Assembly: GCA_024279035.1 (NCBI GenBank)
Contig: JAJRSA010000012.1
Span: 1 to 64,000, forward strand
DNA: 64,000 nt
Reading direction: 5' to 3'
From: Alphaproteobacteria bacterium
Lineage (GTDB): Bacteria; Pseudomonadota; Alphaproteobacteria; Micavibrionales; Micavibrionaceae
Position numbers and translations under genes: made by a program. Shown here in pieces: positions 12,840 through 24,265 of this stretch. The number at the start of each line of letters is the position of its first letter. Within the stretch, counting starts at the first letter, position 1. The notes under the pieces are model-generated. The model worked only from the letters and a program-made list of their open reading frames with translations, had not been told where the DNA came from and ran no database searches.

Positions 12840-13021
12840 ATGAGCAACTTATTTTATTTAAAGAAAAACCAATTAAACCTTATAAAGACTTACTTTCCTC
12901 TGCCTCACAGCAATCCTCTTGCAGATGATAGGCGGGTAATTAGAGCCTTATCCATGTCTTAAAAAGAAGGCTTCAATGGCTAGATGCACCACTAAAATAT
13001 GACGTACACAAGGCGGGCTAA
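12840..13021 (+). pseudogene. IS5-family transposase remnant, N-terminal part, frameshifted
   Basis: The ATG at 12840 opens a 40-codon frame with the N-terminal signature of IS5-family transposases: M-S-N-L-F-Y-L, then F-P-L-P-H, then D-D-R-R-V-I-R-A. It stops at 12960-12962. The next conserved block, L-Q-W-L-D-A-P-L-K-Y-D-V-H-K-A-G, continues in another frame at 12971-13018 and then meets a stop at 13019-13021. The DDE catalytic region is missing. It is therefore a decayed 5' stub, ending where an oppositely oriented transposase fragment begins. Confidence 0.7.
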
Positions 13022-13351
13022 ATTCAAAGCTTCATGCGGTTTGTGATCGACGAGGGAGATTTGATCAATCAGTTTTCTTAAAACTGTTTCTACATATCGT
13101 CGTTTATTCATGATAGATTTGACGAATGATTTTGGTCGTGTCTCTTTCGTATTATGGCGTATAGGGGGATGCATGAGGATGTTTTGATCTTTCATTTCTT
13201 GTGTAAATATTTTACCGAAATACCCTTTATCGCAGAGCATATGCCCTTGAATTTGAAGAGTCATATCGAGCAAGGCTTCTCGTTCATAGGACGCTACTTG
13301 TATCACATTAAAGCCTCTGGTCTCCCCCTTATAGTAGCTTGAATTAAAAAT
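12992..13351 (-). pseudogene. IS982-like transposase remnant, C-terminal part
   Basis: An open frame on the minus strand, bounded upstream by a stop at 13352-13354 and having no ATG, encodes about 119 residues. It resembles the C-terminal third of IS982-family transposases: D-K-G-Y-F-G-K, the M-H-P-P-I-R-H-N segment, then K-R-R-Y-V-E-T-V-L-R-K-L. The N-terminal DDE part is absent and I could not find terminal repeats. The final residues overlap the IS5-type stub on the other strand, so the junction lies around 12992-13021. The family name is by eye. Confidence 0.6.
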
Positions 13352-14494: not shown

Positions 14495-17400
14495 TCACTT
14501 CCATTTTTCTAAAAAGAGATGCGCCTGTTTGATATCTTCTTCAAGCTGGTCTCTGAGACTATTCAGGGTTGCTTGAGGGGGGTTACTTGTTTTAATAGTA
14601 TCTTCCATTAGCGTGGCACGAGAACTTAATCCAACCAAACCAAAATTCCCAGCCATCCCTTTTAAATCATGGAGACGTGCACGTACTAAATCAAGTTTTT
14701 GATTTTGAAGGGCGTTAGATATCTCATAAAATAGGTTATCAATTTTGAGTGTAAACTCATGAATCATGCTTGTAAGTTCATGTCGTACCATACTTGTTTT
14801 CAGGGACATTAATGTTGATGGGTCAAAATCGGCGGGATTATATGAATACTCTTCTTCCTTTTTTTTATCCTCTTCTGCCAGCTCATCAATTATCAATCCC
14901 GTATCCATATCACTCAGAGAAATGCCATGTGGCGTGTCTGATAAATCCTGAGAGCCTCGTGACGAAGAAGAGGGAGATATAGGAGATTCATAATCATCAT
15001 CAAGCTCTAAACTACTCTCTTGATCAAGGGATAACTCTAACTCTTTGGACAAAGGGTTATCAAGGTCACTTTTTCCTCTTTCTTGTTGCACAGGTTCTTT
15101 TTGAGGAAGAGGAGATGATAGGGGGGGCATCGATAGGGGGTCTATGGCTTCCTTCTCTTTAATCTTGTGAAGTATCTTCTCAAGCTTCTCTGCTTCTATT
15201 GGTTTTGCTATAAACCCATTCATACCGACCTCTAAATAAGAGGCAATTTCATCTTGCCCTGTATTCCCTGTAAGGGCAATAATTGGAAGCGATTCCTTGT
15301 CTATTTTTAGATCTTCTCGAATAACACGAGTGGTTTCAATACCGCTAATCCCAGGCATTTCGATATCCATAAAAATGAGATCATACGGTGTATTATTTGT
15401 CTTTAAATCATCAATAGCTTCTTGTCCTGTAACAAAAGAATATGTCTGATGTCCTAGCGGACTAATCAATCCTGCAACAACTTTTTGGTTAATGGCATTG
15501 TCATCCACAACCATGATTGTCAGAGTCTCAGAAGAGGGATGCATTTCTTCCTTAGGTGGCAATAGCTGAACAGGGTGAATTGGTTGAGAATTCTCACAAA
15601 AAACAGGTGGAATCTGTACATTAGGATCATTCATCTTTCCCTCAGGCATCATAATTGAAAAGAAGAAATTACTTCCCTCATTAGAAGTGCTATTTACATT
15701 GATATCTCCTCCCATAGTATTGACAAGCTTTTGGCATATAGCGAGCCCTAGTCCTGATCCTCCATATTTACGACTCGTAGCACTATCAGCTTGAATAAAA
15801 GGATTGAAGAGATTTACTTGTGCTTCTTTTGGAATACCAATACCTGTATCTTGAACAGAAAAATAAAGTTGATAATGCGCATTTTTATGTTCCAACGGGT
15901 GAACCTGAAGAGAAACATACCCTTCTTTTGTGAATTTCAGAGCATTACTAACAAGGTTAAGGAGAATTTGTCTTAAGCGTGTTGGATCCCCATAGATATA
16001 CTGAGGCGTATCTTTATCAATTTCAAGTTTCAGATCAATGTTGTACTCTTCCGTTCGACCGAGCATTAAAGATTGGACATTCTTGAGCAAGTTATAAAGG
16101 TCAAACTCTATACTTTCCAGATCCATTTTCCCTGTATCAATTTTTTCATAATCTAAAATGTCATTCAAAAGCGCCATCATTGCATCTCCAGAATCACTAA
16201 TCGTGTCAACATGATCATTTTGCTCCGCATTCAATGCAGAATGTCTTAAAAGACGAACCATCCCCATAATACCTGTCATGGGCGTCCGAATCTCATGGCT
16301 AATTACAGCCAGAAACACTGATTTTGCTTGATTTGCATAGTCAGCTTTTTCTTTCTCAACTTTCATGTCTTCTGTGAGTTGCACATCCTTTTCTCTCAAT
16401 TCTTTCATAATTTGACGTTCTCGTTTTAAAACTTTTACAAGACGTTCATTGTCAAATCCTTCACGAACTTCTTTTAGCTTTTGAAGCTGACCTCCTCTTT
16501 CTTTGACTTCTTTTTTATTGATTTTTTCTTCTGGTTTTTCTGTTTTTAACTCCTCCGCAAGCCCAATAACCCAGCAGAGTCCAAAAAAGAGAGTTGACCC
16601 ATAATAGGCATTCGCAGAGAAGAGTAATGGAGGAAGGATTTCCATGAAACTAAGAGCCGTAATCAATGCTCCCATAAAAAGGCAAAACCATCCCAAAAAA
16701 GGGATTAAGGTCGCACGAGATATTTTTGACATGGTTAAAAATAAGGAGGAGAGAAAAGATACTGCACAAAGCAGCACAAGAGTTGAGAGAATGAAGAGAG
16801 GCATAGAGTTCTGAAGAATACCAAAAGCATAAAGCCCAGAAAAAAGTACCAAACCAACACTTAAAAGAAGTGATCCAAAATTCAAAATAAAGACAAGAGA
16901 TGCCGCTTGCCGTTTATAAAGAAGACCTCGTTGTGCAACAACAATGAAAGGAAGCCAGAGAATAAAAAGGAGGGGAGTGATATGAGCTAATCCAAGATGA
17001 ATAAACGATGAATTTAGGAGAATACTCGTCACAAAAAGTGCCCACCCAATGCACGCAGGAAGAGAAATAGAAAAGGGGATATTAAAAAGGAAAACAAGCG
17101 ATATAAGAAATAGACTAACCCCCAGTGAAATTAAAACAGTATGGGCAATAGGCATATGCCTATCAGGCAAAGATCCATACATATAAAGTTTAGGGGCATA
17201 ATTTCCCCACCTTGATCCCACACGAGACTCTAGCTCTTGAAAAGAAAGGGTGAGCATGTAGGGTTTGTTTTTTTCGAGCGTAACAATATGTTTTGTCTGA
17301 GTAGGTTTAAAAGTTGTTATTTTCTGCCCTGTCAAAGAATTATAGAGAACGACATCTTTATAGGCAGGAGAAGGCAGAAACAATGAAGGGGACAAATCTA

Positions 17401-17758
17401 AAACCCACTGTGTAGACTGTGTATCATTAATCAGCAGAAACGTAATTTGAATCTCATTTTCCTTCATAAAAACAGATTCTCCAATAGGAGCCTGACGCAG
17501 AGAAGAAAAAACACTCACAATAGTTTTGAAACTCTTTTGAGTAAGCTCCTTTTCGTGAGTCTTATACGCTTTTGATTGGAAAGAATAGACTTTATCACTT
17601 TCACTCAAGAGCATAAGCCCAGGATGTTGAAAAGGATCAAAGGGGAACTCTTTCAACGCAGGGGAGTTGATCCCTGCAATAATATTATTTTGAGCAAATA
17701 CACTGCCCCCTAAGAACAAGAGCATACAAAAGAGAGGGGTAAAAAATAGATGTTTCAT
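14495..17758 (-). CDS. Hybrid sensor histidine kinase with 7TM sensor, receiver and Hpt domains
   Basis: 1087 residues. Order: signal peptide (1-22), an extracytoplasmic 7TMR-DISM-like beta domain (about 40-185), a seven-helix membrane block (about 195-400), a coiled coil (about 410-470), and HisKA with the phospho-His in I-S-H-E-I-R-T-P (about 487). An HATPase domain (D-T-G-I-G-I-P, G-G-S-G-L-G-L-A), a receiver with the Asp in F-M-D-I-E-M-P-G (about 797), an acidic linker, and an Hpt domain with the His in L-H-D-L-K-G-M-A (about 1030) follow. It is a BarA-like phosphorelay. No response regulator is adjacent, so the output partner and ligand are unknown. Confidence 0.92.
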   Translation of the reverse strand: MKHLFFTPLFCMLLFLGGSVFAQNNIIAGINSPALKEFPFDPFQHPGLMLLSESDKVYSFQSKAYKTHEKELTQKSFKTIVSVFSSLRQAPIGESVFMKENEIQITFLLINDTQSTQWVLDLSPSLFLPSPAYKDVVLYNSLTGQKITTFKPTQTKHIVTLEKNKPYMLTLSFQELESRVGSRWGNYAPKLYMYGSLPDRHMPIAHTVLISLGVSLFLISLVFLFNIPFSISLPACIGWALFVTSILLNSSFIHLGLAHITPLLFILWLPFIVVAQRGLLYKRQAASLVFILNFGSLLLSVGLVLFSGLYAFGILQNSMPLFILSTLVLLCAVSFLSSLFLTMSKISRATLIPFLGWFCLFMGALITALSFMEILPPLLFSANAYYGSTLFFGLCWVIGLAEELKTEKPEEKINKKEVKERGGQLQKLKEVREGFDNERLVKVLKRERQIMKELREKDVQLTEDMKVEKEKADYANQAKSVFLAVISHEIRTPMTGIMGMVRLLRHSALNAEQNDHVDTISDSGDAMMALLNDILDYEKIDTGKMDLESIEFDLYNLLKNVQSLMLGRTEEYNIDLKLEIDKDTPQYIYGDPTRLRQILLNLVSNALKFTKEGYVSLQVHPLEHKNAHYQLYFSVQDTGIGIPKEAQVNLFNPFIQADSATSRKYGGSGLGLAICQKLVNTMGGDINVNSTSNEGSNFFFSIMMPEGKMNDPNVQIPPVFCENSQPIHPVQLLPPKEEMHPSSETLTIMVVDDNAINQKVVAGLISPLGHQTYSFVTGQEAIDDLKTNNTPYDLIFMDIEMPGISGIETTRVIREDLKIDKESLPIIALTGNTGQDEIASYLEVGMNGFIAKPIEAEKLEKILHKIKEKEAIDPLSMPPLSSPLPQKEPVQQERGKSDLDNPLSKELELSLDQESSLELDDDYESPISPSSSSRGSQDLSDTPHGISLSDMDTGLIIDELAEEDKKKEEEYSYNPADFDPSTLMSLKTSMVRHELTSMIHEFTLKIDNLFYEISNALQNQKLDLVRARLHDLKGMAGNFGLVGLSSRATLMEDTIKTSNPPQATLNSLRDQLEEDIKQAHLFLEKWK

Positions 17759-17780: not shown

Positions 17781-18548
17781 CTACAAAAGGAAAAGAGCCA
17801 TTACACTTAGAATGGCGATGACAGATAAAGTTGCATATTTCATAATTATAGTAAAAGACATCCACATATCTCGTGAGGCTTTAAATGCATTTTTATAAGG
17901 TGTTTGAGTAGAGCCTAACTCTTTTGTAGATGTGTTTAAGAAGTTGAATTCTGATTGATCAACCTGTTTAAATTTCCCCTCAACAACACAGAAAATAGCC
18001 TCAGAATAGGCAAGGTGTTCTTCCACTAATAATTTTTGCGCTAGCGTTTCAGACGTATCTTTCTTCAAAATTTTAATCGAACGTTGGATAATGGTTTGTC
18101 CCGTATCCATCTCAGACGTCACATAATGAACGGTACATCCCGTTTTTTTATCTCCTGCTTCAATCGCACGCGCATGTGTATCTAACCCTTTATACTTTGG
18201 CAAAAGGGAGGGATGGATATTAATAATATTCTCTCCCCATTGTTCTAAAAAATAAGGACTTAGAATACGCATAAATCCAGCAAGACAAATAAGGTCTACG
18301 GGTTCATGTGTGAGGGTTTCGAGCAAGGCTTTTTCAAACTCTTGTTTCGTTGCATAGTCTTTGTGAGAGATAATCGCATAGGGAACATCAAACTCTTTCG
18401 CATAGTCTAGTCCTCCTGCGTCTGCCTTGTTCGAGATAATACAGCTCACACGCGCTGGAAAGTCAGGCTGTTTACAAGCCTCTAAGATCGCTTTGAGATT
18501 ACTCCCGCGACCAGAAATAAAAACGCAGAGATTTATTTTCTTCGTCAT
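17781..18548 (-). CDS. purN: Phosphoribosylglycinamide formyltransferase fused to a CoxIV-like membrane tail
   Basis: 255 residues; stand-alone PurN is about 190-215. Residues 1-200 are a complete GAR transformylase using 10-formyl-THF in purine synthesis: I-S-G-R-G-S-N-L, catalytic N110 and H112 in I-N-I-H-P-S-L-L-P, and D148 in M-D-T-G. Residues about 201-224 form a linker. Residues 224-255 contain one membrane helix with the W-x-x-F-T-x-x-x-K-Y and M-A-L-F pattern of bacterial aa3-type cytochrome oxidase subunit IV. The frame is continuous, with no ATG, GTG or TTG between the parts except M228 and M230 just before the helix. It overlaps purM by ATGA. The PurN assignment is firm; the CoxIV call is by eye. 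Confidence 0.88.
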
Positions 18549-19585
18549 TTTAACACAATATTTTGCGCTTCATTTTTAACAATGCGCCCAATTTCAAAAA
18601 CACGTTCCCCTTCTTGCTCTAGGACAGATGAAACCTGTTCTTTATCCTCTGCCCTCACAATCACAACAAATCCAATGCCACAATTAAAGGTGCGTGCCAT
18701 ATCGTCTTGTGACAAATTGCCTGCCTCTTGGAGCCATGTGAATAAAGATGGCCTGTCCCATGTGTCCATACTAATCTCCGCACATAGCCCCTTGGGCAAG
18801 ACACGCGGGATATTCTCAAGAAGTCCACCACCTGTGATATGCGACATACCTTGAAGTGCATGGGTTTCCTGTATAGCTTTTAAAATAGGCTGAACATAAA
18901 GGCGTGTGGGCACAAGGAGAGCCTCCCCAAATATGATGGATGTATCATATGGGGCAGGGCTTTGATAAGAAAAACCCTGAGAATTTTCAACCAATTTACG
19001 AACAAGAGAAAATCCATTTGAATGGACTCCGTTCGAGGCCAGACCAAGAATAACATCACCGTCTTCAATATTGGCGCCTGTAATGGCGTCTTCACGTTCA
19101 ACAGCCCCAACAGCAAACCCTGCAAGGTCAAAATCATCGCCTGCGTACATCCCAGGCATTTCAGCTGTTTCTCCGCCAATTAAGGCACATCCAGACATCT
19201 CACACCCTTTGGCAATCCCTGCGATAACAGCCTCTGCCACATCAACATCCAGTGCCCCACAGGCAAAATAATCGAGAAAGAAGAGGGGTTCAGCGCCTTG
19301 TACAAGCAAATCATTCACACACATTGCAACAAGGTCAATACCAACCGTGTCATATATTTTTATATCGAGGGCAATTTTGAGCTTTGTGCCTACGCCATCT
19401 GTTCCAGAGACAAAGATAGGGTCTTTAAATCCTGCGGCTTTAGGGTCAAAAAAACTTCCAAATCCGCCAAATCCACCCATTACGCCTGCACGATGCGTTT
19501 GTTTTATAAGGGGTTTAATGCGGTCAACAAGCTGGTTTCCTGCTTCAATATCGACTCCAGCCTCTTTATATGCGTTATGTTTCAT
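18545..19585 (-). CDS. purM: Phosphoribosylformylglycinamidine cyclo-ligase
   Basis: 346 residues. It makes aminoimidazole ribonucleotide from FGAM and ATP. The N terminus [11 protein letters not shown], the [11 protein letters not shown] nucleotide loop and the [11 protein letters not shown] motif are all intact, as is H-I-T-G-G-G-L. It is translationally coupled to purN and divergent from the DUF2066 gene, the arrangement seen in many Alphaproteobacteria. Confidence 0.96.
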
Positions 19586-22733: not shown

Positions 22734-23618
22734 ATGTCAGATCATAAAATTGAATATGGAAGTACAGGCAAGCCCCATCCATTCCATGTTCCAGAGCCTA
22801 GCATATGGCCTCTTATGGGCGCATTGGCGGCTGGAATCTTTACACTCGGCATGGTTCTTTTTATGCATGATATTGAACTCTCGGGCTTTCAATTTGGCTT
22901 AAAGGGTGTATTTCTCGGCGTTCTTGCGATTTTGGGTGTGATGTTTTACTGGTGGAGAGATGTTTTGACAGAGTCTTTTCAAAAAGGGGCGCATTCTCCT
23001 ATTACGCAAATTGGGTTTCGCTATGGGATGGCTCTCTTTATCTGTTCAGAAGTGATGTTTTTTGTGGCATTCTTCTGGGCATTTTTTGATGCCAGCCTTC
23101 TCTCGGGAGAGATTAATCAGTTCCTCCGTATGGAGTATACACAAGGTGCATGGCCTCCTCCTCATATTGAAATCATTGGCCCCTTTGGCTTACCTCTCCT
23201 CATGACTATGATTCTTCTTTTATCAGGCTGTACCGTCACATGGGCGCATTATGCGATTACACAAGGCAAGCATGCAGAGGCCACAAAAGCGCTCGGCATA
23301 ACCGTTGGATTGGGATTTATCTTTCTTTGCTTTCAAGTCTATGAATATGCCCATGCACATTTTGGCTTTACCGAAGGTATTTATCCCTCAACTTTCTTTA
23401 TGGCCACAGGATTCCATGGCTTTCATGTCCTTGTAGGGACAATTTTCCTGTTTGTCTGTTGGAGACGCTCTGCCAAAGGCCATTTCACACAAGAACGTCA
23501 TTTTGGCTTTGAGGCCGCGGCATGGTATTGGCATTTTGTAGATGTTGTCTGGCTCTTTTTGTTCATTTCAATTTACTGGTGGGGAAACACAATAGGCCTT
23601 GATTCTGTTGCACCATGA
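22734..23618 (+). CDS. ctaE: Cytochrome c oxidase subunit III
   Basis: 294 residues, seven membrane helices. It is a core subunit of the aa3-type haem-copper oxidase. Signatures: H-P-F-H-V-P-E-P-S-I-W-P at the N terminus, S-E-V-M-F-F-V-A-F-F-W-A-F-F, and the closing W-H-F-V-D-V-V-W-L-F-L-F. It starts 61 bp after hdaA and overlaps the SURF1 gene by ATGA. Subunits I and II, ctaB and ctaG, which usually precede it, are not in the window, so the oxidase genes are split in this genome. Confidence 0.96.
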   Translation: MSDHKIEYGSTGKPHPFHVPEPSIWPLMGALAAGIFTLGMVLFMHDIELSGFQFGLKGVFLGVLAILGVMFYWWRDVLTESFQKGAHSPITQIGFRYGMALFICSEVMFFVAFFWAFFDASLLSGEINQFLRMEYTQGAWPPPHIEIIGPFGLPLLMTMILLLSGCTVTWAHYAITQGKHAEATKALGITVGLGFIFLCFQVYEYAHAHFGFTEGIYPSTFFMATGFHGFHVLVGTIFLFVCWRRSAKGHFTQERHFGFEAAAWYWHFVDVVWLFLFISIYWWGNTIGLDSVAP

Positions 23619-24265
23619 AGCCCCACCCCTCTTTTCCATGGCTTGCCACAGGACTCACCCTCATCAGTGCTGTAATTTTATGTGGATTAGGTCTGTGGCA
23701 ACTCCAGCGCTTGGATTGGAAGACAGAGCTTCTCTCTAATCTTGCGAGAGAATACCCAAAAGACCCCTTAGATCACCCTCTTCATGCCCAAGATTTTTTA
23801 AGCATGGAGCAAAATGATATCCGTCATGGGCATGTGACGGGACATTTTTTGTATGAACAAGAAATAGCTATAGGCCCTCGTATACACCAAGAAGAACTGG
23901 GCTATGAAATCTATATCCCCTTCACTTTAGAGACGGGCAAAACTCTTCTCGTCCACCAAGGCTGGACAAAAGAGAAATCTACACGCCATCAAACAGAAAC
24001 AGGCCTCCTCTCGCTCTCAGGCACAGCCCGTATGCCTTCAAAACCATGGAAACTCGGCATCCATAACCAGCCAGACCAAAATATGTGGGTCTATCTGGAT
24101 ATGGAAGATATAGCCCAAACAGTCCCAGACCTCCTCCCCGTTGTCTTTTACAGAGAAAACACCCAATGGATACCCAACAATAACCACCTCCGCTATGCCC
24201 TCTTCTGGTTTGCAATGTGTGGCATTATGCTTGTGATTTACTATGTGAGGTTTTGGAAGATCTAA
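23615..24265 (+). CDS. SURF1 family cytochrome oxidase assembly protein
   Basis: 216 residues with the expected topology: one helix near the N terminus (about 10-28), a periplasmic domain, and one helix near the C terminus (about 192-212). It helps insert haem a into subunit I. G-L-W-Q-L-Q-R-L-x-W-K and G-P-R-I-H and V-H-Q-G-W are family features. It is translationally coupled to subunit III and ends an operon; a 114-bp convergent gap separates it from rmuC. Confidence 0.9.
   Translation: MKPHPSFPWLATGLTLISAVILCGLGLWQLQRLDWKTELLSNLAREYPKDPLDHPLHAQDFLSMEQNDIRHGHVTGHFLYEQEIAIGPRIHQEELGYEIYIPFTLETGKTLLVHQGWTKEKSTRHQTETGLLSLSGTARMPSKPWKLGIHNQPDQNMWVYLDMEDIAQTVPDLLPVVFYRENTQWIPNNNHLRYALFWFAMCGIMLVIYYVRFWKI

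Follow-up and report, generated by a model that had tools for sequence, protein, structure and literature searches.

The question raised by this locus is why the reading frame of purN, whose product is a soluble purine enzyme, runs on past the end of that enzyme into a membrane helix, and what the helix is. The window, by which we mean the whole stretch of 64,000 nucleotides that was analysed, belongs to a draft genome of 1.82 Mb in 40 contigs. The initial annotation had described PurN, a linker and a membrane helix as a single frame, and this is what is found: 255 sense codons without an internal stop. The features on which the argument depends are the following.

17781-18548, minus strand: the fused purN-coxIV reading frame, 255 amino acids and a stop codon, the sole stop lying at 17781-17783.
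17970-18548, minus strand: the PurN part, residues 1-193, with Asn110, His112 and Asp148; TIGR00639 match at residues 6-193.
17904-17969, minus strand: the linker, residues 194-215 (about 22 residues), predicted to be disordered and 19-31% identical within the genus.
17784-17903, minus strand: the CoxIV tail, residues 216-255, with a tail-profile match and a sub-threshold PF07835 match.
17901-17903, minus strand: ACA where the CoxIV start used to be, 40 codons from the end; G001 and G002, of the same genus, have ATG there.
17859-17867, minus strand: ATG TGG ATG (M228 and M230), the first possible internal starts, with anti-SD energies of -0.1 and -3.0 kcal/mol, at background level.
17793-17849, minus strand: the strongest hydrophobic stretch by hydropathy, residues 234-252, within the predicted helix 217-254; Lys237 is the last charged residue.
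18545-19585, minus strand: purM, overlapping the start of purN by 4 bases.
14495-17758, minus strand: a sensor histidine kinase gene after the tail, a conserved neighbour.
22734-24265, plus strand: coxIII and SURF1, whose proximity to purN is not conserved.

Elsewhere in the window, between unrelated genes, a 104-residue frame at 12992-13306 (minus strand) resembles, as judged by eye, the remnant of an insertion-sequence transposase.

The PurN part matches TIGR00639 with 233.6 bits (residues 6-193, model positions 2-189 of 192), a match that spans the model and exceeds the equivalog cut-off of 150.1. Residues N110, H112 and D148, which from E. coli PurN we take to be the catalytic Asn, His and Asp, are present and are invariant in 39 PurN rows. 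Beyond the end of the PurN model at residue 193, another 62 residues remain in the fused frame. AlphaFold2, run with 39 aligned sequences (38 of the 74 usable PurN references were taken), gives block means of 91-98 pLDDT for PurN residues 1-190, falls below 50 in the linker (residues 198-216), and predicts a single helix at residues 217-254. The maximum Kyte-Doolittle value of any 19-mer in the fused protein, 2.08, is reached at residues 234-252, the best 19-mer starting before residue 180 having 1.39. Four basic residues (K219, K223, R226 and K237) all lie N-terminal of the last 18 residues, which are uncharged; the tail has one predicted membrane helix with a positive N side, as looked for in CoxIV. 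By its predicted C-terminal helix, PurN would be tethered to the membrane.

Is the tail a CoxIV, that is, subunit IV of an aa3-type oxidase? The initial annotation had recognized the pattern of this subunit, and the Pfam family PF07835 does match the tail alone, at 18.2-18.3 bits (10.8 bits with the whole protein), although this single score stays below the gathering cut-off of 22; a six-frame search of the window genome with PF07835 returns no match at E 0.001, the fused tail included. The relatives give further evidence. We aligned 22 tails, six from fused frames and 16 from separate genes 46-51 residues long; PF07835 recognizes 20 of them at E up to 1. When 57 genomes were searched in six frames with this family, eight gave a match over the cut-off, and in three of these eight (G041, G033 and G008) the match is the gene adjoining purN. 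PF07835 was also applied to genes that follow purN in Azospirillum and further alphaproteobacterial records: all eight tested, taken from 12 such loci with a tail, match it, five of them over the cut-off and the best (Azospirillum rugosum) at 36.3 bits. The window tail is in this way connected to CoxIV through intermediates that pass the Pfam cut-off.

Profiles built from the tails point the same way. The profile of the 22 aligned tails (A1), of which the window tail itself is one row, finds that tail in its own genome at E 2.6e-16. Searched against the PDB, it gives 12 matches at E up to 10, five of which, including ranks 1 and 2, are cytochrome oxidase chains (1qle_D, 5weh_D, 7ate_D, 9fks_j and 1m56_D; E 0.039-1.3); the matches are individually weak and unrelated chains are interspersed. 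Subunit IV is named in three of the five (5weh_D, 7ate_D and 9fks_j), and the other two, 1qle_D and 1m56_D, labelled merely cytochrome c oxidase, are presumably subunit IV as well. A second profile was made from separate tails with no fused ones; the test comprised 50 distinct tails, nine fused and 41 separate, L057 being left out because its frame leaves the family pattern. Against this profile the window tail scores 35.0 bits, compared with a leave-one-out mean of 36.4 (sd 9.3) for the separate tails, 34% of which score lower, and with a mean of -0.2 and a maximum of 11.8 bits for 180 shuffled fused tails. An unrelated hydrophobic tail is ruled out by the PF07835 match, the A1 matches in the genome and the PDB, and the separate-copy profile; the initial annotation had named unrelated hydrophobic tails in the relatives as a case against its reading, and the relatives carry the same tail family. 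Judged by sequence, the window tail is homologous to subunit IV of aa3 oxidases.

The fused tail is also the sole tail-profile match at E 0.01 in the 40 contigs of the draft genome, and no second CoxIV was found elsewhere in it with either the tail profile (E 0.01) or PF07835 (E 0.001). The genome has one COX1 gene, beside an open frame that looks like COX2 (named by eye). We observe COX1 together with this COX2-like and a COX15-like frame, the last two named by eye, on another contig (G000:C27, L186), apart from coxIII and SURF1, and the oxidase genes of this genome seem to be scattered. That coxIII and SURF1 lie 4-6 kb from the fused frame had been offered as support for a CoxIV tail; the positions are as described, and the linkage is not conserved. 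By tblastn at E 1e-8, neither gene was found in the 18-19 kb around purN of G001, G005, G011 and G113, nor by tblastn in the shorter stretches of G042, G080, L096, L099, L100 and L101. Conserved linkage is thereby ruled out as support, and since the two genes were not found near purN in these relatives, their proximity in the window is no argument.

How the two genes came to share a frame can be read from the order as a whole. We searched 142 genomes with a fused-protein profile and a tail profile. The former matched 116; the 79 whose PurN is close (E better than 1e-60) were kept, and the 37 with weaker matches were left out; for the tail, 88 rows with E below 1e-5 were used and five rows at E 7e-4 to 0.009 were dropped. 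In 51 of the 79 genomes the tail adjoins purN on the same strand, 42 times as a separate gene and nine times fused. The separate genes occur in all three frames relative to purN (14, 16 and 12). In one further genome (G088) the tail is on another contig and purN at a contig end, and in the remaining 27 of the 79 there is no tail match anywhere in the genome. The initial annotation had considered a lost stop that fused two neighbours; separate purN and coxIV genes in 42 of 51 adjacent pairs, with the frame fused in G001 and G002, bear this out. Genomes in which a CoxIV match is absent include G004, G012, G020, G024 and G034, and the absence extends to all ten close-PurN genomes of genus g3 and all four of g11. 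These genomes suggest, as far as profile matches can tell, repeated loss of oxidase subunit IV in the order. In one locus (L057, G122) the frame of the CoxIV-like gene after purN departs from the family pattern where the helix begins and terminates early, possibly through a frameshift or decay.

The pairing extends beyond the order. Among 80 PurN loci from a wider contig collection, a tail follows purN in 14 and is absent in 66; two of the 14 had come up before, on contigs of the order, and the other 12 belong to Azospirillum, Rhodovibrio, Rhodospirillaceae and unplaced alphaproteobacterial or proteobacterial MAGs. In Azospirillum, purN is immediately followed by a CoxIV-like gene at L100:4728-4874, L101:4740-4886 and L103:4774-4914 (the last under the Pfam cut-off), which shows that the pairing is not confined to the order of the window. 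Within the order, the genomes compared have in common, as far as their stretches reach, a block of hda, perM and DUF2066 facing purM, purN, the kinase and ndk; the two Azospirillum loci compared share the gene order perM, DUF2066, purM, purN, ndk and have coxIV next to purN, on its downstream side. From this block and the Azospirillum gene order, the purN neighbourhood looks like an old home of coxIV. Most of the distant PurN loci, however, lack coxIV beside purN.

The nine fused genomes fall into four genera: g1 (the window genome, G001 and G002), g4 (G005, G113 and G114), g22 (G080) and g40 (G042 and G054), the last belonging to another family. On a maximum-likelihood tree of 84 PurN domains, 79 from the order and five chosen outsiders, the fused label changes four times (bootstrap range 4-5), and the strongly supported branches force at least two changes. 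In G014, purN is closed by a stop and the genome has no tail match. By this tree, the history would comprise either three fusions, with CoxIV lost in G014, or four fusions. In a draw of 385 genomes from the whole class, 260 of which matched at E 1e-60, none of the matches listed outside the order runs on into the tail uninterrupted by a stop; among them, G220, G201, G447, G221, G259, G437, G514 and G176 have the tail matched across one or two stops.

The reading that we favour, and think probable, is a fused gene pair whose product is a PurN anchored in the membrane by a tail that still acts as CoxIV. An old neighbour pair of purN and the gene for aa3-oxidase subunit IV would have fused in frame through loss of the purN stop, and the window genome would afterwards have lost the former start codon of coxIV as well. 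The sole ordinary source of a full-length CoxIV tail would then be one polypeptide of cytoplasmic PurN, flexible linker and C-terminal helix. The helix would insert with its N side facing the cytoplasm, PurN would remain an active enzyme held at the inner membrane, and the helix would still fill the place of CoxIV on the single aa3 oxidase. We infer the order of the two losses, the insertion and topology of the helix, its docking on the oxidase and the activity of PurN. Tethering of PurN to the aa3 oxidase is likewise what we infer, the association being that one COX1 and one tail match occur together in the genome.

As the initial annotation had noted, there is no ATG, GTG or TTG between the two parts other than two Met: codons 193-231 hold only M228 and M230, and from ACA to ATG TGG ATG there is no ATG, GTG, TTG or near-cognate start. 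Further downstream in the tail are ATG at M236 and M250 and TTG at L255. The window is the only one of the nine fused frames without ATG at the old CoxIV start; the codon is kept in all eight others, with anti-SD energies of -5.3, -8.4, -9.5, -6.6, -3.0, -12.3, -5.6 and -5.1 kcal/mol. Their mean of -7.0 is stronger than the -2.9 of 192 ATGs inside PurN domains (p 0.0003); the starts of 35 separate CoxIV genes average -5.5 kcal/mol, these starts being picked by script, wrongly for L021 and L089. Having better sites than background as a group, the kept ATGs probably allow both the fusion and a free CoxIV to be made, and going by these sites the eight other fused species may still make the free subunit. 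In one of these loci (L066, G080) a TTG lies six codons before the internal ATG, after a stretch resembling a ribosome site (-9.5); with this strong upstream stretch, the internal start in G080 may be the TTG.

It is from these kept starts, and from the predicted disorder of the linker, that another explanation draws its strength, namely that the genes are fused and the products are not: the whole protein would be cut in the linker, or a helix of 26-28 residues would be started at M228 or M230, and soluble PurN and free CoxIV would persist. Free CoxIV does seem to be kept in the eight other fused frames (-3.0 to -12.3), although taken singly three of the kept ATGs (-5.3, -5.1 and -3.0) are equalled by 21, 21 and 54% of background ATGs. 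In the window itself, ACA at the old start leaves no normal start for a full-length free tail, and the sites of M228 and M230 are at background level, with 82% and 54% of background ATGs as good or better. For the window, we consider a fusion confined to the gene unlikely.

Selection on the tail bears on whether it still has work to do in the oxidase. G113 and G114, the closest fused pair, give a dN/dS of about 0.07 for PurN, 0.27 for the linker region and about 0.08 for the tail (31 codons). In the genus of the window, the tail has dN/dS of about 0.5-0.6 (dN 0.43-0.50, dS 0.71-0.94; 31 codons), and its identity is 45-48% against 67-73% for PurN. In the PurN identity band of 60-76%, the tails of four fused pairs are 41-45% identical, compared with a mean of 35.5% (sd 10.2) for 187 separate pairs, whose mean PurN identity is lower (63%) and whose tail mean is depressed by out-of-register L089 pairs. 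Relaxed selection as read from the dN/dS of the genus is therefore unsupported, fused tails diverging no faster than separate ones in this control. The nine fused tails do score somewhat lower than the separate copies on the separate-copy profile (mean 31.5 against 36.4 bits, p 0.058), which leaves room for mild relaxation.

These measurements are divided over a neutral accident, in which CoxIV is dispensable, loss of the stop did no harm, and what is left of the tail's role is that of an anchor or passenger with no function in the oxidase. Paracoccus is only mildly affected by losing subunit IV, and the 27 of 79 close-PurN genomes without a CoxIV match imply, against our reading, that the subunit may be dispensable; with so many relatives lacking a detectable CoxIV, a passenger tail is conceivable. 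The lost start codon of the window, the lower scores of fused tails and the dN/dS of 0.5-0.6 within the genus fit as well. Against it, the score of the window tail falls among those of the separate copies, divergence is no faster in fused tails than in free ones, and in G113 and G114 the tail is constrained much like PurN. On balance such an accident appears quite improbable. That an assembly or sequencing error produced the fusion, as a draft of 40 contigs might suggest, we all but discount, the frame being open in both other genomes of the genus, which differ in sequence (in G002 the contig starts inside purN), and also in G005, G113, G114, G080, G042 and G054, and ATG and ACA being two substitutions apart.

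A membrane-anchored PurN with a working CoxIV tail thus stays our preferred reading, and it has a bolder form that we put forward tentatively and rather doubt: that the cytochrome oxidase of this lineage contains PurN as an integral part. Every CoxIV would then carry a PurN on the cytoplasmic face, their stoichiometry would be fixed, and 10-formyl-THF would be used at a respiratory complex, with the stepwise intermediates (separate genes, a fused frame with an internal start, an obligate fusion) still alive in sister genera.

PurN and CoxIV are themselves known families, and what appears to be new is the recurrent fusion of neighbouring genes with an unusual pair of partners. Two proteins of unrelated pathways appear to have been fused several times from the same neighbour pair, and the steps are still visible, from separate genes through a fused frame keeping its internal start to an obligate fusion. 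Repeated fusion with visible steps provides a natural test between function and tolerated accident as the reason why operon neighbours fuse. In these genomes, annotation may hide CoxIV inside PurN, and a housekeeping enzyme of the soluble kind may be acting from the membrane. No PurN-CoxIV fusion occurs in the titles and abstract beginnings of the literature matches listed, and a word search of PMC6431628 gave no occurrences.

Three known systems invite comparison. The first is the COX4-type C-terminal extension on COX1 of bacterial aa3 oxidases, which is in print (PMC4013037). There, as in the window, a COX4-type subunit forms the C-terminal extension of another protein; the partner in that case is subunit I of the oxidase itself, whereas in the window it is an unrelated purine enzyme. 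The second is glycinamide ribonucleotide formyltransferase, the known PurN (TIGR00639, PF00551), which the window protein resembles in its full-length match and its Asn, His and Asp; its best solved relatives are GART/PurN. Unlike known PurN, it has a 62-residue extension with a membrane helix. The third is subunit IV of aa3 oxidases (PF07835, COX4_pro_2), with which the tail shares W-x-x-F and a single C-terminal helix. Unlike free subunit IV, with its 46-51 residues in the 16 aligned separate copies, the tail is not a free protein; taken singly it falls under the Pfam cut-off, and its N-terminal part is shortened in the genus of the window.
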